Shown piece after piece: positions 3,297-63,603 of a stretch of DNA of 64,000 nt. The notes under the pieces were generated by a model. That model did not search any database. It was not told where the DNA came from and worked only from the letters and a program-made list of their open reading frames with translations. The stretch lies in NCBI GenBank assembly GCA_015493635.1, contig WGCU01000018.1:1-64000 (forward strand), given 5' to 3'. This DNA is from Spirochaetaceae bacterium (GTDB lineage: Bacteria > Spirochaetota > Spirochaetia > B11-G9). The number at the start of each line of letters is the position of its first letter. Position 1 is the first letter of the stretch. The position numbers were made by a program, and so were the translations under genes.

Positions 3297-3530
3297 ATGG
3301 GGATCAGAGGTGAAGTTTTCTCTTCCAAGGCAAACTCGGAAAACAGAACGTATTTTTTTAATGTTAAGGAAAACAGGCATGGTGATTTGTTTTTAAATAT
3401 TGTTGAGAGTAAAAAACATGGTGAAGAAGGATTTGAACGTCATTCTGTGATTGTTTTTGATGAAGATTTGGAAAATTTTCTCTCGGGTTTCCAGCAGGCA
3501 ATTGATTTTATGAAGAAAAATTCACGGTAA
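3297..3530 (+). CDS. PUR-domain nucleic-acid-binding protein (BpuR-like, DUF3276)
   Basis: This 77-residue protein matches the single PUR-alpha-like repeat found in spirochaetes and Bacteroidetes. The motif RTYFFNVKENRHGDLFLNIV is close to what I recall of Borrelia BpuR, which binds DNA and RNA and affects translation. The protein is nearly all PUR domain: four beta strands followed by a C-terminal helix (NFLSGFQQAIDFMKK). It stands alone, and its last codons overlap the 3' end of rnhB on the other strand by nine bases. A regulatory role here is inferred from the family. Confidence 0.82.
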   Translation: MGIRGEVFSSKANSENRTYFFNVKENRHGDLFLNIVESKKHGEEGFERHSVIVFDEDLENFLSGFQQAIDFMKKNSR

Positions 3531-4073
3531 AATTCGAAAACTTCTCCGGTGAATGGGGGAAAGCCCTATTGCAAGGCATCTCTGGCGGTGAAGTTTGGTA
3601 GGATATCCTTTGTGCTTTTCAAAACCGTATCTGTTGTCAATCCATGAATAGCGGATCATCCAACGGTCTCTTGCAGTTTTTGCCAGAATTGATGCCGCCT
3701 GAATTTCCCTTATTTTGATATCTCCCTTAATTACTGCCGTGACGGGAACAGAAAGTTCCGGAGTAAATTTCCCGTCGACAAATACCTGTTCCGGACGTAC
3801 ATGCATCAAGTAAAAAGCTCTCTTCATGGCAAGAAGAGATGCATAGTGAATATTAAGATTGTCAATTTCTCCCGGCCAGACCCACCCGACGGCGTAATCA
3901 ACTGCTGCATCCATGATTATTTCCGACGCTGTGATCCTTTTCTTTTCAGAGAGAGCCTTTGAATCAGCCAGGAGATAAAAAGGGAAATCAGCAGAGAGTA
4001 TTACTGCCGCCGCAGTAACAGGCCCGGCGAGAGGTCCTCTCCCCGCTTCATCAATACCGCAAACAAGATTCAT
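3522..4073 (-). CDS. rnhB: ribonuclease HII
   Basis: RNase HII cleaves the RNA strand of RNA-DNA hybrids and starts removal of misincorporated ribonucleotides. The 183-residue protein has the family signature GIDEAGRGPLAGPV with D8 and E9, D100 (VDGKF), and the segment ASILAKTARDR with D136, giving the metal-binding acidic set. Length is typical. The ATG at 4073 has no Shine-Dalgarno, and a strong promoter ends six bases before it, so the mRNA is probably leaderless. It is divergent from smc. Confidence 0.95.
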   Translation of the reverse strand: MNLVCGIDEAGRGPLAGPVTAAAVILSADFPFYLLADSKALSEKKRITASEIIMDAAVDYAVGWVWPGEIDNLNIHYASLLAMKRAFYLMHVRPEQVFVDGKFTPELSVPVTAVIKGDIKIREIQAASILAKTARDRWMIRYSWIDNRYGFEKHKGYPTKLHRQRCLAIGLSPIHRRSFRILP

Positions 4074-4079
4074 GACTTA

Positions 4080-4109
4080 ATTCTAGAGTGCTTTACTGCC
4101 GGCTGTCAA
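4080..4109 (-). promoter_or_regulatory. promoter of rnhB, probably giving a leaderless mRNA
   Basis: On the minus strand TTGACA (4104-4109) and TAGAAT (4080-4085) are separated by 18 bases. Only six bases separate the -10 box from the rnhB ATG, so a start site seven bases after the -10 box falls on the A of ATG. Confidence 0.65.
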
Positions 4110-16610: not shown

Positions 16611-16722
16611 TCAAATACTCCTTAGTTACAGTGTATCCAGTCAAATGGAATTTGTCAAAACCAATTTTAATAATATTGCTGTCTCAATAGATAAAATAAT
16701 GGAAAAACGAAAAAAAAGCTAT

Positions 16723-16748
16723 ATTTCGGTTACCGGCCGATAAATTTA
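16723..16748 (-). promoter_or_regulatory. possible sigma-28 promoter of the lipoprotein/HEAT pair
   Basis: On the minus strand TAAA (16745-16748), 14 bases, and ACCGAAAT (16723-16730) resemble the flaB promoter of this window, which has TTAA, 15 bases and ACCGAAAA. The spacer contains the imperfect palindrome TTATCGGCCGGTAA. The plus strand of the same stretch contains a perfect GCCGATAA at 16736-16743, but no matching TAAA at the right distance. Confidence 0.4.
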
Positions 16749-16749
16749 C

Positions 16750-16779
16750 TTGACTATCTTGCGGTATGATGGTTACACT
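16750..16779 (+). promoter_or_regulatory. promoter of coaD, probably giving a leaderless mRNA
   Basis: TTGACT (16750-16755) and TACACT (16774-16779) are separated by 18 bases. Six bases follow before the coaD ATG, so the predicted start site is the A of ATG. No Shine-Dalgarno is present. Confidence 0.55.
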
Positions 16780-16785
16780 ACGGAC

Positions 16786-17268
16786 ATGATAAAAGCTATG
16801 CTGCCAGGTTCATTTGATCCTCCGACAAACGGACATCTGAATCTGATTGAACGGGCATCACGTATATTTGAGAAACTGTATATTGTTATCGCGGTTAATG
16901 AATCAAAAAAATATCTGTTTTCCGCGAAGGAACGGTACAGTATGATCAGGAAGCTTACTACTCCATACAAGAATGTAGAAGTTACATTATTTGATGATCT
17001 TGTTGTAAATTTTGCCCAGCAGAATAACGTTAAGGTTATCATTAGGGGAGTAAGGGCGTTAGTTGATTTCGGATATGAGTTTGAGCTTGCTATGACGAAT
17101 AAAGAACTTAATCCGAATATTGAGATAATGTTTATGCCGACTGATCCGAAGTTTTTTGTATTGCGCTCTTCGGCCATAAAGGAAATCGCAGCTTTTCACG
17201 GGGATATATCGTCAATGGTACCCCCTGATGTTGTTGTGGCACTAGAACAGAAGCTGCATACTAGTTGA
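16786..17268 (+). CDS. coaD: phosphopantetheine adenylyltransferase
   Basis: CoaD makes dephospho-CoA from 4'-phosphopantetheine and ATP, the penultimate step of coenzyme A synthesis. The 160-residue protein has the nucleotidyltransferase motif PGSFDPPTNGHLNLI (the TxGH variant TNGH) and the C-terminal motif RSSAIKEIA (ISSTxxR-type loop in modified form). I start it at ATG 16786, giving the normal family length. A longer frame from 16750 would begin inside the promoter. Confidence 0.95.
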   Translation: MIKAMLPGSFDPPTNGHLNLIERASRIFEKLYIVIAVNESKKYLFSAKERYSMIRKLTTPYKNVEVTLFDDLVVNFAQQNNVKVIIRGVRALVDFGYEFELAMTNKELNPNIEIMFMPTDPKFFVLRSSAIKEIAAFHGDISSMVPPDVVVALEQKLHTS

Positions 17269-18548: not shown

Positions 18549-19907
18549 CTATATGAGAGTTTGTTTGAGAAGGTTATCTGCTATTTCAAGTAGTTTTTCT
18601 CTTCTGTTTAGAGAAGGATCATCAAGCACAGCTTCCAGTAATTCATGAAGTATAATACCGATAACGGGACCGCGTTCAATATGTAACTGTTCCTGTATTA
18701 TTTTTCCGTTGACGGCAAGATCCTTCAATGTAAAGGCCTTATCCTCTTCAAGTATAGCATTAACACGGTCAATAAAACGGTAAAGCTGCTCCGGGTCAAA
18801 ACTTTTATTTTTCATACCATACTGGTCAGCAAGACGTAGTTTAAAAAGATCATCAAGAGCATCAACTCCGACACGGGCAATAAATTTTCTCACAGCACCA
18901 TCACTCCATTCATCGGTATAATGAAACATGTGATGTTCAATAAGATGACAGGTTTTTTTTATTGTTTCGTTGGGAAACTTAAGACGTTTTAATACATTTT
19001 TAGAAAGTTCTGAAGATATTTTATCATGATTATAAAATGTTGGAATACCAAGTTCATCAGTTTTTCGAGCTGCTGGTTTGCCAAGATCATGGAGAAGCGC
19101 CGCAAGACGTACGATAAGACTGTGTTTATCTGCTCCATCGCATGAGTAATAAAGATGATCAAGCACATCAAAATCATGAAAGCCTTTCTGATCAACCCCC
19201 CTGCATTCATTAAGTTCAGGAATAATCAGAGACATAATACCTGTCTTCTCTAATATCATTAACGCGGTTGAAGGTTTGTCTGTGGAGAGAATCCTGATAA
19301 TTTCATCCCGAATACGTTCCATGGAAACCTTCAAAATATTTTGACTGCATAGTGCCATTGCTTTTAAAGTTTCTTGTTCTATAGTAAAATCAAGTTGAGA
19401 AGTAAACCTGCACCCGCGCATAAGCCGAAGTCCATCTTCATTAAAGCGGTCTACCGGATTTCCTATAGCACGGATTATTTTTGATTTTATGTCATCAATA
19501 CCATGGTGAGGATCAATAATATCTCCCGTGTTCATATTGAGAGCAATAGCGTTTATTGTAAAATCCCTTCTTTTAAGATCTTCAAAGATAGAAGCACTGT
19601 ACTGTACGTAATCAGGATGGCGGGCGTTGGTATAGGTACTTTCAATCCTGAAGGTGGTTACTTCATACTGTTCTCCTTTAAAAAGTACCGTCACTGTTCC
19701 ATGTTTGATACCTGTCGGTATGACTCGTCTGAAAATGCGGAGAACATCTTCCGGCAGTGCATCTGTGGCAAAATCATAATCCGTGGGTTCTAGATGCGCG
19801 TAAAAGTTACGGAGAGCACCACCGACAAGGTAGCATGAGTATTGATTTTCCTTGAATACAGACGCAAAAGATTTTAATTTTTTATTAAGAAGTGCTTTCC
19901 GTTTCAC
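18549..19907 (-). CDS. cca: CCA tRNA nucleotidyltransferase (HD-domain type)
   Basis: This 452-residue class II nucleotidyltransferase adds or repairs the tRNA CCA end, or in part adds A residues. The N-terminal domain has YLVGGALRNF and the catalytic DxD in TDYDFATDALPEDV, then RRDFTINAIALN. An HD domain follows (LLHDLGKPAARKTD, about 270-285) and a helical C-terminus. A separate poly(A)-polymerase-like gene lies at 34522, so this copy is more likely the CCA-adding enzyme. None of the tRNAs in this window encodes CCA, so the activity is needed. Confidence 0.88.
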   Translation of the reverse strand: MKRKALLNKKLKSFASVFKENQYSCYLVGGALRNFYAHLEPTDYDFATDALPEDVLRIFRRVIPTGIKHGTVTVLFKGEQYEVTTFRIESTYTNARHPDYVQYSASIFEDLKRRDFTINAIALNMNTGDIIDPHHGIDDIKSKIIRAIGNPVDRFNEDGLRLMRGCRFTSQLDFTIEQETLKAMALCSQNILKVSMERIRDEIIRILSTDKPSTALMILEKTGIMSLIIPELNECRGVDQKGFHDFDVLDHLYYSCDGADKHSLIVRLAALLHDLGKPAARKTDELGIPTFYNHDKISSELSKNVLKRLKFPNETIKKTCHLIEHHMFHYTDEWSDGAVRKFIARVGVDALDDLFKLRLADQYGMKNKSFDPEQLYRFIDRVNAILEEDKAFTLKDLAVNGKIIQEQLHIERGPVIGIILHELLEAVLDDPSLNRREKLLEIADNLLKQTLI

Positions 19908-19963
19908 CGTTTGGACAGTAAACTATCTTGTTGTAAAAGTGTCAAGTAAGAGACCGTAATAAT

Positions 19964-28055: not shown

Positions 28056-29204
28056 TTATTTACTCCTGAAAATAGTAAGCTCCTCGTTGACTGCTCTGGA
28101 GAAACGAAGAATGTCTTCTTCTGTTGTCAAAGCTCCCGTTGAAACACGGAAAGAATGAAATGATTGTTCTTTCGTTAATCCCATTGCAGAGAGTACTCTT
28201 GCTTTTTTCTCTTTATTTTTTGAAGAACAGGCAGACCCTGCAGATATGGCAAATCCCCTGTCATCCATTATCCGGGTAAATACTTCTCCGGGGAAATGTT
28301 TTATTGAGGCATTTATAATAAACGGAGAATGTTCGGGAGTTCTTTCAAGAACTTTTATTTCTGGAATTAATCTGTATTCCGAAAGTAACAATTCCATGAG
28401 TTTTTTTGCATGATCTATTCTTTCACTAAAATTGGTGAAATACTGTTCCATTGCTGTGGTAAACCCATGAATCCCCGCAAGGTTCTCTGTCCCTGGTCTC
28501 ACCCCGTTTTCCTGCCCGCCTCCGGCAGAAAGAACTCCCGGAACATTTTTTATGTACAGAATTCCGACACCTCTCGGTCCCTGGATTTTATGAGCACTGA
28601 AAGATGCTGAATCAATCCCCTGTTCCTCCGTATGAAGATAAATTTTTCCAAGAGCCTGGACAGCATCCGTATGAATATGAATATGATGGTTATTCGTCTT
28701 TTCGAAGTTTCTGACAACTCTGACAATATCACCGATAGGCTGGACAGCACCTGTTTCATTATTAACGGTCATAATGATAACCATCATGGTATCGTGCTGT
28801 AATTTTCTCTCGACCGTTCGGGGTTGAATAATTCCGTACATATCAGGATAAAGGATCGTAACCGAATAACCAAAATTTTTCAGAAAATGTACATATTCAA
28901 AAAGCGAAGGATGCTCTATTCCTGAAATAAGTATGTTCCCAGGGGTTTTACGAAGAAGGAGCGACCGAAGAATGATTTCATTGGATTCAGTACCCCCCGA
29001 AGTGAAAACAATTCTCTTTTTTTCTGTCCCAAGCAGCTCTGCACAACGGCCTCTGTCTTTTTCGAGGAAACGTTCTGCTGCCTTTCCCTCCAAATGTATG
29101 GAAGAAGGATTACCGGGAAAGCGTACTGCCGCATCGTTCATTTGTTCCAGTACCGTTCTGTCTAGAGGAGATGTTGCCGCCCAGTCTAAATATACCCGTT
29201 TCAT
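28056..29204 (-). CDS. cysteine desulfurase (IscS/NifS family)
   Basis: This PLP enzyme takes sulfur from cysteine as a persulfide, most likely for ThiI encoded next to it. The 382-residue protein begins VYLDWAATSPLD, has the PLP lysine in FSAHKIQGPRGVG and the catalytic Cys loop in AISAGSACSSKNKEK. No iscU lies nearby, which fits a dedicated NifZ-like tRNA-thiolation role. The upstream sequence has TACTAT then six bases before ATG 29204 without a Shine-Dalgarno, so a leaderless start is possible but its -35 box is weak. Confidence 0.9.
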   Translation of the reverse strand: MKRVYLDWAATSPLDRTVLEQMNDAAVRFPGNPSSIHLEGKAAERFLEKDRGRCAELLGTEKKRIVFTSGGTESNEIILRSLLLRKTPGNILISGIEHPSLFEYVHFLKNFGYSVTILYPDMYGIIQPRTVERKLQHDTMMVIIMTVNNETGAVQPIGDIVRVVRNFEKTNNHHIHIHTDAVQALGKIYLHTEEQGIDSASFSAHKIQGPRGVGILYIKNVPGVLSAGGGQENGVRPGTENLAGIHGFTTAMEQYFTNFSERIDHAKKLMELLLSEYRLIPEIKVLERTPEHSPFIINASIKHFPGEVFTRIMDDRGFAISAGSACSSKNKEKKARVLSAMGLTKEQSFHSFRVSTGALTTEEDILRFSRAVNEELTIFRSK

Positions 29205-29285
29205 GGCTGTATAGTATGATATCTTACTCTTTTATTCCATAACATCCTTGAAAAAAAGGGTTAAAGAGTGTATCATAATCAGTAT

Positions 29286-29573
29286 ATGAATGATTATGTT
29301 TGTTGCAGCGGAATACTGATCGATTCCTTTGCAGAGAAGTTGAAAGTTTGCGGACATCCACTGCGTTTGAAGATTCTGTGCCTTATAGAAAAAGAAGATG
29401 CATGTGTTACTGAGTTATGGACATGTCTGAATCAGTCTCAGCCTGTTATCTCTCAACATCTTGCTGTTCTCAAAGATAAAGGTATTGTCTCATCAGAAAT
29501 ACAGGGAAATAAACGGTACTACTCAATTAGTGACCCTTTTGTAAGAGATCTTATCGCCCGTATGGATAAATAA
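29286..29573 (+). CDS. ArsR-family transcriptional regulator
   Basis: This small winged-helix repressor has the ArsR pattern FAEKLKVCGHPLRLKILCLI, then QPVISQHLAVLKDKGIVSSE and NKRYYSIS. It holds many cysteines (VCC near the start, KVC, ILC, DAC and WTC), and ACVTELWTC is where metal-sensing members carry ELCVCDL, so metal or redox sensing is possible. I start at ATG 29286 because TTGAAA-N17-TATCAT (29244-29272) would start transcription a few bases before it. GTG at 29268 is an alternative. It is divergent from the cysteine desulfurase gene. Confidence 0.8.
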   Translation: MNDYVCCSGILIDSFAEKLKVCGHPLRLKILCLIEKEDACVTELWTCLNQSQPVISQHLAVLKDKGIVSSEIQGNKRYYSISDPFVRDLIARMDK

Positions 29574-36941: not shown

Positions 36942-37799
36942 TTATGAAAGCTGGTCAACTTTTACATTGACACTTGAAAGGATAACCCCCGAATAACGTT
37001 CTATATTTTCTATAATATAGTCCTGAAGACTGTGTATAGTCCCTGAAAGCTGAAGGCCCAGAGGGACATGGATGTCTATTCTTAGTTTGTATCCCTTTGG
37101 GGAGTTACTTATATTTATCTTTTTAACGGAAATGGTATCATCAAATTCATCAATGCAGTGAATAATCATTTGGGTTAATGCAGGTTCAGAAATTGAAATT
37201 CTGCCCTTGCTGCCGAATTCAGGCCTGACTATCGCTTTTTCAAAAAATTTATTATTCTTTTTAAACGAAAATCGTGTTTTTAAAAATACTTTTACCGAAT
37301 CATAGACAAACTGGGGATAGGTCCTATGAATCTCAACAACGGGGACCGGAATAACATGCTTTCCTTCTACGTACCGTGAATGTATGGCAGTGTCTATCTC
37401 CTCTTTGCTTGCAAGATTCTCAATATGAAGTATTTTTGCAGGAGAAGGTAATTCCAGCCTTTCTGTAATCCTCTTTACCATACGTTCTGATGTACCAATG
37501 ATAAGTATCCTCTTAAACCGTTCTTTTCTAAGATGTGTCAGTACACTTTTCTGATGTACCGGGTCATCAAAGAGAGCTGTTTTGACAGCGGCAAGAAAGT
37601 TCTTTTCTTTTTTGGCTGATTTCCCGGCAATTATCTTCTGTCCCCGTATCAGAAGTCCGTCATCAATGATAAGCTCAATGCCGTATTTTTGTGCAACCAG
37701 TTTTGCGCGGAAACTTTTTCCTGTTCCTGCTTTTCCTACAAGAGCATAAACTTTTATTCCACGCAGCATCCAGTTTACATGACGCACTATATTAAACAT
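36942..37799 (-). CDS. P-loop ATPase fused to an Asp23/Gls24 domain
   Basis: The 285-residue protein has an N-terminal nucleotide-binding domain with Walker A ALVGKAGTGKSFRAKL (about 19-34), and LIIDDGLLIRGQ as the following strand. It continues to about residue 165 with FKRILIIGTSERMVKRI. The C-terminal 100 residues match the Asp23/alkaline-shock fold: GRISISEPALTQMIIHCIDE, then LRIDIHVPLGLQLS, then IERYSGVILSSVNVKV. I do not know a function for this fusion. The start is uncertain: ATG 37799 is chosen, TTG 37805 and ATG 37769 are possible, and none has a Shine-Dalgarno. Confidence 0.72.
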   Translation of the reverse strand: MFNIVRHVNWMLRGIKVYALVGKAGTGKSFRAKLVAQKYGIELIIDDGLLIRGQKIIAGKSAKKEKNFLAAVKTALFDDPVHQKSVLTHLRKERFKRILIIGTSERMVKRITERLELPSPAKILHIENLASKEEIDTAIHSRYVEGKHVIPVPVVEIHRTYPQFVYDSVKVFLKTRFSFKKNNKFFEKAIVRPEFGSKGRISISEPALTQMIIHCIDEFDDTISVKKINISNSPKGYKLRIDIHVPLGLQLSGTIHSLQDYIIENIERYSGVILSSVNVKVDQLS

Positions 37800-37900
37800 G
37801 CACAAATAATATACTTTGCATTTTCCTTATTCAATAGCACTTGACAAAATAAGAGCTAATAGAGGAAACTAAAAAAAATAATTTCTACAAAGAGTAAACA

Positions 37901-46450: not shown

Positions 46451-46592
46451 AATGAAAGGTGTCAATACCCCAGGGTAAACCCTGGCCCAAGACCGCTATT
46501 GCGGCCTATTCCGCAGCATATTGATACCTTTCGTTCTCTGTATTTGTTCGGGAATGGAACCAACTAGTTGCCACGTTCAACTTCCCCGTTTG
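46451..46592 (-). repeat. dispersed palindromic repeat, copy A (long form)
   Basis: Read on the minus strand, this block matches 58506-58597 on the plus strand over its whole length. A 5' part runs from CAAACG through AACTAGTTG and TTCCATTCCCG to CAGAGAACG. It is followed by the arm GAAAGGTATCAATA and the opposite arm TATTGACACCTTTC. Between the arms copy A has 49 extra bases that hold two further hairpins (CCAGGG with CCCTGG, and CCGC with GCGG). It fills the gap between two convergent genes and runs into the 3' end of the minus-strand gene. Confidence 0.8.
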
Positions 46593-47811
46593 AAAATAAA
46601 AAAAATAGGGAATTCAGCCATGGCCTCGTTTCACGGTAAAAATGGTCTTCTGCAAGGGTAAACTCCATAAATGATGCATGGAAGTCTCTCATAAAATACA
46701 GAACCTGACCCATATAAAAATGTGTACGTAAAACAATATTTTCAGAGTGGCGCAGGCTGAGAAAATTACCAAGAAGTTTTTTTGCTTCATACCAGTTTTT
46801 ATGCATGAAATCAGTATTCAGTATTCTTACAAGCTGATAATTCTCACTATTTTCTTTTGCAGCTCGGTCTACTGGAAAGATATACAAGGAGGGGATCGGC
46901 GGTTCATATGCTGGAAGTGATTTACTTAAGCTAGAAACCGATGTGCGTGTTTTTTTGTTTAAATGACGTAATCGGGGAAATGAAATTAATGAAGAAGCAA
47001 GAGGTTTTCCCGATTCAATCCCTATTCGAACATTAAGGAAGGGCAAAGGTTGTTCTCTTAATACAGCTAAGGAAGTTTTATGTGGCAATGTTACTGCTGC
47101 CAGAGGGAGTTCTGTGCTGTTTTTTGTAACATTTTCCCCAATTTCAAAATTAAAAACTCCTTTTTGTGAAAGCAATGCATCAAAAAGTGCATAGTAGTAA
47201 GAAACGCCGGGTACAGGTGTATCAAAGAAAACTCCGGATGCTGATCCTGTTGTTGCAATTACAGAAGAATTTGATAGATCCTCGTTTTCCTGTATAGGTG
47301 AAGTACTTCGGTAAATAACAATCTTCCGTTCAGGTTTTGAGCTCTTAAACGAAATTCTTATTCTTTTATCAAGAACACTCGTCTTGATCCCTGATATATG
47401 GGTTGCCAGTTTTTCAGGTGTTACAGTGTTTATAACATGGACAGGTTTATCAGTTATATTACGGAAAGGAATAAACAGCTTATAAGGAGTATTTCCTGAA
47501 TGTACGGCAAGAACAGCATAATAATAGGGTTGCATTTTAGCTGGTGTGTCAATAAAGACCCCACGACCGGCTGGAACAACTCCTATTTTTTCTGCGGAAG
47601 AAAAAGTATCATCATTAATCTTTTTTGAACTCCGGTACACAGTGTATGTTTTAATATTATCAGTTGAGTCCATCCACGTAAGCTTTATGGTGTTTCCATC
47701 TGGGACTGCTTGTAATTTAGAGACGAAAGGTGCAAATATTTCATCTGTAAAAGCAGTCGATACTGTTAAAAGTAACAGGAGAATAGAGTAAAAAAAGAAT
47801 AATCGTTTCAT
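46564..47811 (-). CDS. exported protein with FN3-like domains
   Basis: The 415-residue protein has a signal peptide (LFFFYSILLLLLTVSTAF) and two fibronectin-III-like domains. These are about 30-120 (NTIKLTWMDSTDNIKTYTVY, then YYYAVLAVHSG) and about 135-225 (RIRISFKSSKPERKIVIYRS, then YYYALFDAL). A C-terminal helical, TPR-like part (about 325-405) follows. It is probably a periplasmic or surface protein. Its final nine codons and stop (SNGEVERGN) come from the dispersed repeat. A GCCGATAA upstream (47823-47830 on minus) hints at flagellar sigma control but has no proper -35 box. Confidence 0.65.
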   Translation of the reverse strand: MKRLFFFYSILLLLLTVSTAFTDEIFAPFVSKLQAVPDGNTIKLTWMDSTDNIKTYTVYRSSKKINDDTFSSAEKIGVVPAGRGVFIDTPAKMQPYYYAVLAVHSGNTPYKLFIPFRNITDKPVHVINTVTPEKLATHISGIKTSVLDKRIRISFKSSKPERKIVIYRSTSPIQENEDLSNSSVIATTGSASGVFFDTPVPGVSYYYALFDALLSQKGVFNFEIGENVTKNSTELPLAAVTLPHKTSLAVLREQPLPFLNVRIGIESGKPLASSLISFPRLRHLNKKTRTSVSSLSKSLPAYEPPIPSLYIFPVDRAAKENSENYQLVRILNTDFMHKNWYEAKKLLGNFLSLRHSENIVLRTHFYMGQVLYFMRDFHASFMEFTLAEDHFYRETRPWLNSLFFLFSNGEVERGN

Positions 47812-47862
47812 ACTATAAGTTTTATCGGCAAATATAACTTACTGCAATAGAGAAAAGAGGGT

Positions 47863-47891
47863 TTGACACGGTAATTACTTCCAAATAAAAT
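47863..47891 (+). promoter_or_regulatory. promoter of the Cas2-like gene, probably giving a leaderless mRNA
   Basis: TTGACA (47863-47868) and TAAAAT (47886-47891) are separated by 17 bases, and only AGAGT lies between the -10 box and the ATG at 47897. There is no Shine-Dalgarno. Confidence 0.65.
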
Positions 47892-47896
47892 AGAGT

Positions 47897-48172
47897 ATGT
47901 TTGTTGCAGTATCATGTGAACTGGCCAATGATGACCACATACTTGCTATTCAGCTTCTCATGAAGGAATACGGGTTCACCGAGGTTGTAAAAAATCTCTT
48001 TGAATCTGCAAAACTTAAAGAAGAGGTACTTTCCCGGTTAAAACGGGATATTGATAGAAGAACCGACTCTTTTGATATTATTCGAATATATCAGTATCCC
48101 CTGGAAGATACTCTGGTTATTACGACGTTGCGTGATAAACATTGGAAACGAACCGTTGTAAAAAAAAGATAA
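47897..48172 (+). CDS. Cas2/VapD-like small protein
   Basis: This 91-residue protein has the ferredoxin-like layout of the Cas2/VapD superfamily: a first strand MFVAVSCEL, a helix HILAIQLLMKEYGFTEV, a strand with NLFESAKLKEE (compare SVFE..L in Cas2), a helix SRLKRDIDRR and a strand DIIRIYQYP. The N-terminal Asp that Cas2 uses for metal is not present (SCEL). There is no cas1 or CRISPR array in the window. It lies 11 bases before prfB and may be a housekeeping or antitoxin-type member. The family call is tentative. Confidence 0.5.
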   Translation: MFVAVSCELANDDHILAIQLLMKEYGFTEVVKNLFESAKLKEEVLSRLKRDIDRRTDSFDIIRIYQYPLEDTLVITTLRDKHWKRTVVKKR

Positions 48173-48183
48173 GGAGAAAATAA

Positions 48184-49288
48184 ATGCTCATTGATTTTAA
48201 GAATAGGTTTGAATTAGTAAAAAAAGAACTTGATGATACATGGAGGCGTCTTTGACCCGGTAAAAACAAAAGATAAAATTGAAAAACTTGAACAGATAAC
48301 ATCACTTCCAGACTTTTGGGAAAACAGAAATCATGCAGAGAAAGTTATGGGAGATCTTAAATTGCTCCGTAGTACCTATGATCCTTGGGAAAAAATAATG
48401 CAGGATTTTACGGATATATATGACCTCTTTGAGATGGCCAGGGAAGAAAATGATGAAGAAATGGGAGATGAAATAGAAAATTCTCTTAATAATCTGGAAA
48501 AGAGGTTTGAAAATCTGAAACTTCTTGAAATGCTGAAAGGCCCTTATGACAAGAACAGTTTATTTTTGACCATTCATTCCGGTGCAGGAGGGACAGAAGC
48601 CTGCGATTGGGTTCAAATGCTTTTACGGATGTTTACTCGGTGGAGTGAACGCCATGAATATACCGTTAAAATTGTTGATTTGCAGGAGGCCGAAGGGGGC
48701 ATAAAGTCTGTTACTGTGCAAATTGACGGTGATTATGCTTATGGATATCTTCAGGGGGAAACAGGGATTCATCGGTTAGTACGTATTTCCCCTTTTGACT
48801 CTAGTAAACGCCGCCATACCTCTTTTGCTTCGGTATATGCATCTCCTGTTATTGATGATACAATAGAATTCGAAATCAAACCGGATGACATCCGTATTGA
48901 TACGTACCGTGCATCAGGGGCAGGAGGACAGCACGTTAATAAAACAGATTCTGCTGTTCGGATAACCCATCTGGAAACAGGAGTGGTTGTGCAATGTCAG
49001 AATGAACGGAGTCAATTCAAGAATAAATCAATGGCCATGAAAGTTCTTAAAAGCCGTCTTTTTGAATATTATCAAGAAAAAAAAGATGAAGAAATGGAGA
49101 AGCGAGCTCAGGAAAAGAAAGATATTTCATGGGGTAATCAGATACGTTCTTATGTTTTTCATCCATACAGCATGGTTAAAGATCATAGAACCAGGTTTGA
49201 AACAGGAAATGTTCAGGGGGTTATGGATGGGGACCTTGACGGATTTATTGAAGCTTTTCTTAAATGGAAATGGTTTGACAAAGTATGA
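48184..49288 (+). CDS. prfB: peptide chain release factor 2, with programmed +1 frameshift
   Basis: RF2 ends translation at UGA and UAA. The gene starts at ATG 48184 (AAGGAG upstream), and 23 codons later meets an in-frame TGA at 48253-48255 in the sequence CTT TGA C. GGAGG lies just upstream of it (48242-48246). A +1 slip on CTT continues at 48254 and yields about 367 residues. The rest has the GGQ motif (ASGAGGQHVNKTDSAV) and ends WKWFDKV. The frameshift is the known autoregulatory device of RF2. The 3' end overlaps the cheY-like gene by four bases. Confidence 0.96.
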
Positions 49289-58505: not shown

Positions 58506-58597
58506 CAAACGAGTGAGTTGAGCGGGATAACTTGTTGATTCCATTCCCGGGGGAGTGCAGAGAGCGAAAGGTATCAATAGGTATTGACACCTTTCAT
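58506..58597 (+). repeat. dispersed palindromic repeat, copy B (short form)
   Basis: On the plus strand this is CAAACGAG, then GTTGAGCGGGATAACTTGTT, GATTCCATTCCCG, CAGAGAGCG, and the hairpin arms GAAAGGTATCAATA and TATTGACACCTTTC with only a G between. It matches the reverse complement of 46451-46592 except for the 49 bases missing here. The 14-base stem has the same single mismatch in both copies. It lies between two convergent genes and overlaps the yidD stop. Confidence 0.8.
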
Positions 58598-58875
58598 TTT
58601 TTTGAACGATAAAACTTGTGATAACGGGAAGTAATGTAATTCATAGAGAATTTTTCAGGAACAGGATCATCACCACCTGTAAAAAAAAGACTGGTACACC
58701 GGAAAATTCTTGTAATACCAAGGAAAATTCCCTTAAAAACGCCGTGTTTTTTGATTGATTCTCTGGCATACATGGAACATGTTGGATGGTAAATACATGA
58801 ACTGGGAAATAATGGAGAAATGAGCCGTTGATAGAGTATTATAGGTAAAATAAAAAGAAAGCGTATTATTTTCAT
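58594..58875 (-). CDS. yidD: membrane protein insertion efficiency factor YidD
   Basis: YidD helps YidC-type membrane protein insertion. The 93-residue protein has the core [24 protein letters not shown], a good match to the family motif (RLISP..P..CRY.PTCS.YA). It is alone, away from rnpA and yidC. I start at ATG 58875, since a promoter ends seven bases before it and there is no Shine-Dalgarno. A GTG at 58881 would overlap the predicted start site. The stop lies in the dispersed repeat. Confidence 0.9.
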
Positions 58876-58882
58876 CTTCACA

Positions 58883-58911
58883 ATTCTATATTAAGAGATA
58901 AAATTACTCAA
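58883..58911 (-). promoter_or_regulatory. promoter of yidD, probably giving a leaderless mRNA
   Basis: On the minus strand TTGAGT (58906-58911) and TAGAAT (58883-58888) are separated by 17 bases, with seven bases to the ATG and no Shine-Dalgarno. Confidence 0.55.
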
Positions 58912-62527: not shown

Positions 62528-63568
62528 TTACAGTACGGCTGGAATAGCTGTAAGACCTTCCTCTTCAGGGTACCCGAAAAGGATATTCATATTCTGAACA
62601 GCCTGGCCGGCTGCTCCCTTTATAAGATTATCAATAGCTCCGACAATAATAACCCTGTTTAGACGTTCATCAAGAGCAAATCCAATATCAATAAAATTTG
62701 ATGAGCGTACAAAGCGGGTTTCAGGTAATTTCCCGGGATCAAGGATACGAACAAAATGTTCATTACGGTAAAAATTTTTATAAAGATAAAAGAGATCATC
62801 CAGAGAAGTGGACTTTTTTAATGATGCATAACTGGTTGTAAGAATTCCTCTGTTCATGGGTATGAGATGAGGAGTAAAAGTAAGCATAACATCTTCACCT
62901 GCTAAAATTGACAATTCCTGCTCAATTTCAGGCGCATGGCGGTGCGACGCAGCTTTGTATGCTTTAACTGACTCATTACACTCCGCGTAATGAACACCCC
63001 GGGACAGTGATCTTCCTGCACCGGAAATACCGGATTTAGCATCAATAATTATTGATGACGGGTTTATTCTTTTTTCTGCAAGAAGAGGTGCAAGCGAGAG
63101 TATGCTGCATGTTGTGTAGCAGCCGGGATTTGCTATAAGGCGGCTTGCCGCTATCTCTATTCTGTTAAGTTCACAGAGGCCATACACTGCTTGTTTCAGT
63201 ATTTTGGTATTTGTGTGTTTTACTCCGTACCATTTCTCATAAACATCTTCATTCTTCAATCTGAAATCAGCACCTAAATCTATAATAACAGTTTTTAAAA
63301 GGATGTCTTCTGTTACTTGACTAAAAGTTAAACCATGAGGCAGTGCAAGAAATATTACATCGCAGGAATCAGCCATTTCTGCGATGTCCATTGAAACACA
63401 TCTGTCAGAAAGAAGCGTATTAAACTGAGAGAAGATATCAGTAAAAGGTTCTCCCTGATAAGTCCTGGATGAAAGATACTTTATTTCTACTTCAGGATGG
63501 CCGGTAAGAAGTCGGACAATTTCTTCCCCAGCATAACCTGTAGCTCCAATAATTCCTGCTTTTATCAT
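62528..63568 (-). CDS. argC: N-acetyl-gamma-glutamyl-phosphate reductase
   Basis: ArgC reduces N-acetylglutamyl phosphate with NADPH. The 346-residue protein has the Rossmann motif GIIGATGYAGEEIVRLL, the catalytic Cys in ANPGCYTTCSILSL, and HRHAPEIEQEL, typical of the family. I start at ATG 63568: an ATG further upstream is in a non-family region that contains the promoter. There is no Shine-Dalgarno, so a leaderless mRNA is likely. It leads argJ, argB and argD. Confidence 0.95.
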   Translation of the reverse strand: MIKAGIIGATGYAGEEIVRLLTGHPEVEIKYLSSRTYQGEPFTDIFSQFNTLLSDRCVSMDIAEMADSCDVIFLALPHGLTFSQVTEDILLKTVIIDLGADFRLKNEDVYEKWYGVKHTNTKILKQAVYGLCELNRIEIAASRLIANPGCYTTCSILSLAPLLAEKRINPSSIIIDAKSGISGAGRSLSRGVHYAECNESVKAYKAASHRHAPEIEQELSILAGEDVMLTFTPHLIPMNRGILTTSYASLKKSTSLDDLFYLYKNFYRNEHFVRILDPGKLPETRFVRSSNFIDIGFALDERLNRVIIVGAIDNLIKGAAGQAVQNMNILFGYPEEEGLTAIPAVL

Positions 63569-63574
63569 GCAGGT

Positions 63575-63603
63575 ATGATACGTACTCCCCCTGAAACTGT
63601 CAA
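63575..63603 (-). promoter_or_regulatory. promoter of the arg operon, probably giving a leaderless mRNA
   Basis: On the minus strand TTGACA (63598-63603) and TATCAT (63575-63580) are separated by 17 bases, and six bases lie between the -10 box and the argC ATG. This is the clearest of the leaderless-type promoters. I see no ARG-box-like dyad. Confidence 0.7.

Follow-up and report, generated by a model that had tools for sequence, protein, structure and literature searches.

Sigma-70-type promoters placed one discriminator length from the start codon predict leaderless mRNAs in a spirochaete genome and its class

Promoter boxes close to start codons in the window

The window analyzed here is a 64,000-nucleotide stretch (contig C18; 38% G+C) of a 3.27 Mb spirochaete genome that is 98% complete. 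It contains five genes, rnhB, coaD, a Cas2-like gene, yidD, and argC, that were proposed in an initial annotation to share a -35 box, a spacer of 17-18 bases, a -10 box 5-7 bases before the ATG, and no Shine-Dalgarno (SD) sequence. Direct reading of the DNA confirmed both the boxes and the lack of an SD 4-mer at all five. The hexamers and spacers are those of sigma-70 promoters (16-18 bases allowed, 17-18 found in five of five), and the first T of the TANNNT box lies 11-13 bases before the start codon in each gene.

Specifically, rnhB (RNase HII; 3522-4073, minus strand) is preceded by TTGACA-18-TAGAAT-6-ATG, with the -35 box at 4104-4109, also recovered by a whole-genome pattern scan, the -10 box at 4080-4085, and an ATG at 4073 that is the 5'-most start of its frame; among 15 named genomes, its matches are 49-56% identical in spirochaete records and 37-47% identical in other phyla, which points to a probable spirochaete origin of the genome. 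The coaD gene (16786-17268, plus strand; TIGR01510, E 6e-55) carries TTGACT-18-TACACT-6-ATG, with boxes at 16750-16755 and 16774-16779 and the ATG at 16786. Just 5' of its -35 box lies TTTCGGTTGCCGACCGAAATATA (16710-16750), which is partly palindromic and conserved family-wide (loci L201-L206). The Cas2-like gene (47897-48172, plus strand) encodes a Cas2-fold protein of 91 aa; Pfam CRISPR_Cas2 was recognized in 12 of its 20 orthologues, with a best E of 3e-10, and a profile search matched the protein weakly to Cas2 chains of solved structure. Its layout is TTGACA-17-TAAAAT-5-ATG (-35 box at 47863-47868, likewise found by the whole-genome scan; -10 box at 47886-47891), and its ATG, at 47897, is again the 5'-most start of the frame. 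The yidD gene (58594-58875, minus strand; Pfam YidD, E 3e-24) has TTGAGT-17-TAGAAT-7-ATG (58906-58911 and 58883-58888; ATG at 58875), and argC (62528-63568, minus strand; TIGR01850, E 7e-131) has TTGACA-17-TATCAT-6-ATG (63598-63603 and 63575-63580; ATG at 63568), with orthologues that align from residue 1.

Further sites in the window resemble these to varying degrees. One that had been missed previously, TTGAAT-17-TATTAT-6-ATG, lies on the minus strand before an ATG at 37799 (boxes at 37829-37834 and 37806-37811). Two genes had been put forward as weaker candidates, and each bears this out in part. The ArsR gene (ATG at 29286, plus strand) has a good TTGAAA-17-TATCAT promoter (29248-29253 and 29271-29276), but its -10 box ends 9 bases before the ATG, making it near-leaderless at best. 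A perfect palindrome, ATAATCA-N9-TGATTAT (29275-29297), overlaps this -10 box and the start codon, and is likely an autoregulatory operator that extends into the coding sequence. The cysteine desulfurase gene (ATG at 29204, minus strand) has the right distance, 6 bases after a -10-like TACTAT (29211-29216), but a poor -35 box, TGGAAT. A GTG start may also be leaderless at the CCA-adding enzyme gene, which is preceded by TTGACA-19-TACTGT-7-GTG (19905-19945, minus strand). An Rfam scan returned three tRNAs only, and the leaderless-type sites are therefore not explained by any known riboswitch or leader RNA.

Genome-wide excess and the predicted transcription start

Taking the gap as the number of bases between the -10 box and the start codon, and a unit-first gene as the first gene of a transcription unit, we found the layout (promoter score of at least 8 at a gap of 5-7, a threshold that the cysteine desulfurase gene, scoring 7, falls below) at 7 of the 28 unit-first starts of the window, versus 0.52 expected from dinucleotide shuffles (Poisson p ~1e-6). 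The annotation had suggested a genome scan, and in the whole genome TTGACA-N16-18-TANNNT-N5-8-ATG indeed matched 55 times, six of these being one repeated sequence, versus 6 matches with the pattern reversed. Elsewhere in the genome, TTGACATATGTGCAAGGTATGGTATAATTATAACCATG is present six times, frequently at contig ends (contigs C4, C7, C23, C37, C64, and C65), and probably represents a mobile element that carries a promoter of the leaderless type.

Gap statistics were drawn from 1.19 Mb, or 36% of the genome, with 1055 gene calls, of which 417 were unit-first; gene calls and start choices came from a simple gene model of our own. Loose start choice blurred the peak of the gap histogram, and scoring every plausible ATG start sharpened it. 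The histogram then peaked sharply at gap 6, with 26 unit-first genes versus 3.6 expected, and gaps 5-9 together held 59 versus 15.2 expected, including 9, 9, and 8 genes at gaps 7, 8, and 9 (about 3 expected each). Inner operon genes showed little of the layout (gap 6 in 6 of 508). The surplus comes to about 44 genes, so that, as judged from sequence, some 10% of those heading a transcription unit and 4% of the whole gene set appear to be of the leaderless type.

At sigma-70 promoters, transcription usually starts seven bases after the -10 box, so that a gap of 6 places the predicted start on the A of the ATG. Two features of the sequence around the start codon bear on this. A pyrimidine occupies position -1 in 18 of 21 gap-6 genes without an SD (C in 52% of them), versus 247 of 486 SD-led genes (Fisher p 0.0015), which fits a pyrimidine-purine transcription start at the ATG. 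Further, an SD 4-mer occurs at the ATG in none of the five window genes and in only 4 of the 26 strong-layout genes, whereas roughly one in two of the remaining unit-first genes (199 of 391) has one at some candidate ATG. The accompanying remark that operon-internal genes mostly do have an SD proved fair but loose, since 284 of 508 inner genes have a candidate ATG with an SD 4-mer.

Conservation across the class and the argC switch

Across 40 genomes of the class, the present one included, the strict pattern matched 1124 times at gaps 5-7, 443 times at gaps 13-15, and 144 times at gaps 5-7 when reversed, and gap 5-7 matches outnumbered gap 13-15 matches in every one of the 40. The ratio was lower in four named spirochaete genomes (44 versus 30) and in eight non-spirochaete genomes (158 versus 105), and this weaker excess beyond the spirochaetes indicates that the layout is not specific to the group.

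Gene by gene, orthologues belonging to many families retain the fixed gap even though the sequence around it has diverged. At the Cas2-like gene the layout was present in 18 of 20 orthologues with identities down to 38% and in 12 of 14 families, at rnhB in 16 of 28 orthologues (excluding the named genomes of argC relatives, in which longer N-termini make the rnhB start uncertain), and at coaD in 16 of 30; about 0.5-0.6 would be expected for each of these counts, within which the orthologues are phylogenetically non-independent. In genus g2, coaD retains the promoter and the gap, with GTG replacing ATG. The Cas2-like gene had no match in the named genomes of the argC relatives, a set without a positive control. 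Judged from these comparisons, three of the five arrangements, those of the Cas2-like gene, coaD, and rnhB, are maintained over many families of one class, while the layout is poorly conserved among orthologues of yidD (6 of 28) and argC (3 of 27).

The surroundings of the Cas2-like gene are themselves conserved. The order of a divergent 415-aa gene, the Cas2-fold gene, and prfB (46564-49288) is kept class-wide (loci L261-L280), and prfB, encoding release factor 2, adjoins the Cas2-like gene in 20 of 20 loci examined. No cas1 was recognized among the window proteins scanned, which leaves the Cas2-fold protein in no obvious CRISPR setting. The divergent 415-aa gene has a feature of its own: in most relatives a conserved (G/A)CCGATA(A/T) stands about 10 bases before its ATG (47811-47845, minus strand), resembling a sigma-28 (FliA) -10 box, with no SD there; the sampled genome gave no clear sign of a sigma-28 regulon built on CCGATA. 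We offer as a tentative and rather doubtful idea that class-wide selection maintains the Cas2-like gene, coaD, and rnhB as leaderless genes, for example because this would keep them translatable under impaired initiation, and that the Cas2-like gene may belong to a translation-linked module.

The lineage-specific behavior of argC is of a different kind. The leaderless-type layout occurs in the present genome and, with the same promoter, in its sister genus g3 (locus L172). Genus g2 has almost the same promoter (TTGACAG...TTATCATA), but there a leader of 30-40 bases, with GGGAG or GGAG as its SD, separates it from the start codon. By sequence comparison, argC has changed between leadered and leaderless-type forms inside one family, through a switch that could have run in either direction.

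Probable leaderless transcription, its alternatives, and known leaderless genes

The most economical reading of these observations is that sigma-70-type promoters here leave a single discriminator length, about 6 bases, between the -10 box and the start codon, such that RNA polymerase would start on, or within one base of, the A of the ATG. The resulting mRNAs would be leaderless and would be translated from a 5'-terminal AUG without an SD, a mode of initiation often carried out by 70S ribosomes. We put the probability of this reading at roughly 85%, and infer both where the transcripts begin and how ribosomes enter them. That transcription of these genes begins at the A of the ATG or next to it, as first proposed from the five window sites, gains support from the gap-6 peak, the pyrimidine at -1, the scarcity of SDs, and the conservation of the gap. 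The mapping of leaderless mRNAs in a spirochaete, Leptospira, counts in the same direction (PMC5243855), while gaps of 5 and 7 count against it, as they require the transcription start to shift by one base.

The boxes themselves are hard to dismiss. Although TANNNT is loosely defined and the window A+T-rich, the motif occurs at this position more often than expected: matches were far fewer with dinucleotide shuffles, with the pattern reversed, and with the gap shifted. The layout is also kept in orthologues, and chance matches in intergenic DNA are scarcely credible as an explanation. If the promoters are real, the working start codons could still lie elsewhere and the mRNAs have leaders. Upstream in-frame starts do exist for argC, coaD, and yidD, but those of argC and coaD fall in or before the -35 box, the ATGs of rnhB and the Cas2-like gene are already the 5'-most of their frames, and the alignments to orthologues begin at about residue 1-3 when counted from the proposed starts, which are thus supported by homology. 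Misplaced starts of this sort are highly improbable.

Two further alternatives concern where transcription begins. The genes might be transcribed mostly from more distant promoters, with the near boxes minor or silent, and our promoter scoring reached only about 70 bases from the start codon. The five genes have no SD to serve a leader, however, and the near boxes are positionally conserved across families, which makes this improbable too. The other alternative, that transcription starts a base or more before the ATG and produces very short leaders of 1-5 bases, draws on the surplus of genes at gaps 7-9, on the gap of 9 at the ArsR gene, and on Leptospira, where many starts fall no more than 10 bases from the ATG (PMC5243855). 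Against these, the sharp gap-6 peak of the histogram and the pyrimidine that precedes the ATG of gap-6 genes both point to the A of the ATG as the start. As a general account very short leaders seem unlikely, although leaders of a few bases are possible, above all at gaps 7-9.

Leaderless transcription thus remains our preferred reading, and it has parallels in other bacteria. Mycobacteria, in which the leaderless fraction is far higher than here, also use GTG in leaderless genes, as the GTG of coaD in genus g2 recalls. The leaderless genes of mycobacteria, a subject associated with Shell et al. in 2015, reportedly start transcription at the first codon. Among spirochaetes, Zheng et al. (2011) predicted leaderless, "TA-led" genes in 6 of 18 genomes, at 1.8-6.9% of genes and 3.9% on average, compared with about 4% estimated in the present genome, and reported that changes of leader state track phylogenetic distance (PMC3160421). 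Like their genes, those described here have a TANNNT whose first T lies about 12 bases (here 11-13) before the start, lack an SD, and form a minority; unlike in that study (PMC3160421), a strong -35 box is present as well, and the orthologues of each gene were traced across as many as 28 families of one class. In Leptospira interrogans, probably of the same phylum, mapping placed the 5' ends of about 440 genes no more than 10 bases from the start codon, around half of them within 2, with no clear general promoter motif beyond sigma-54 (2017; PMC5243855). The 5' ends were measured there, whereas here a clear sigma-70 layout emerges from the DNA alone.

Leaderless genes in Spirochaetes are therefore already known, and the points of interest are the class-wide conservation and the argC switch. 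Our results add a lineage that has strong sigma-70 boxes and whose leaderless genes are recognizable from sequence, and where the layout helps the annotation of start codons in leaderless-type genes. They further name genes whose leaderless state seems long-lasting through a class. Finally, argC provides a natural comparison, in which nearly the same promoter is leaderless in two genera and followed by an SD leader in a third, that would allow a direct test of the effect of a leader on expression.
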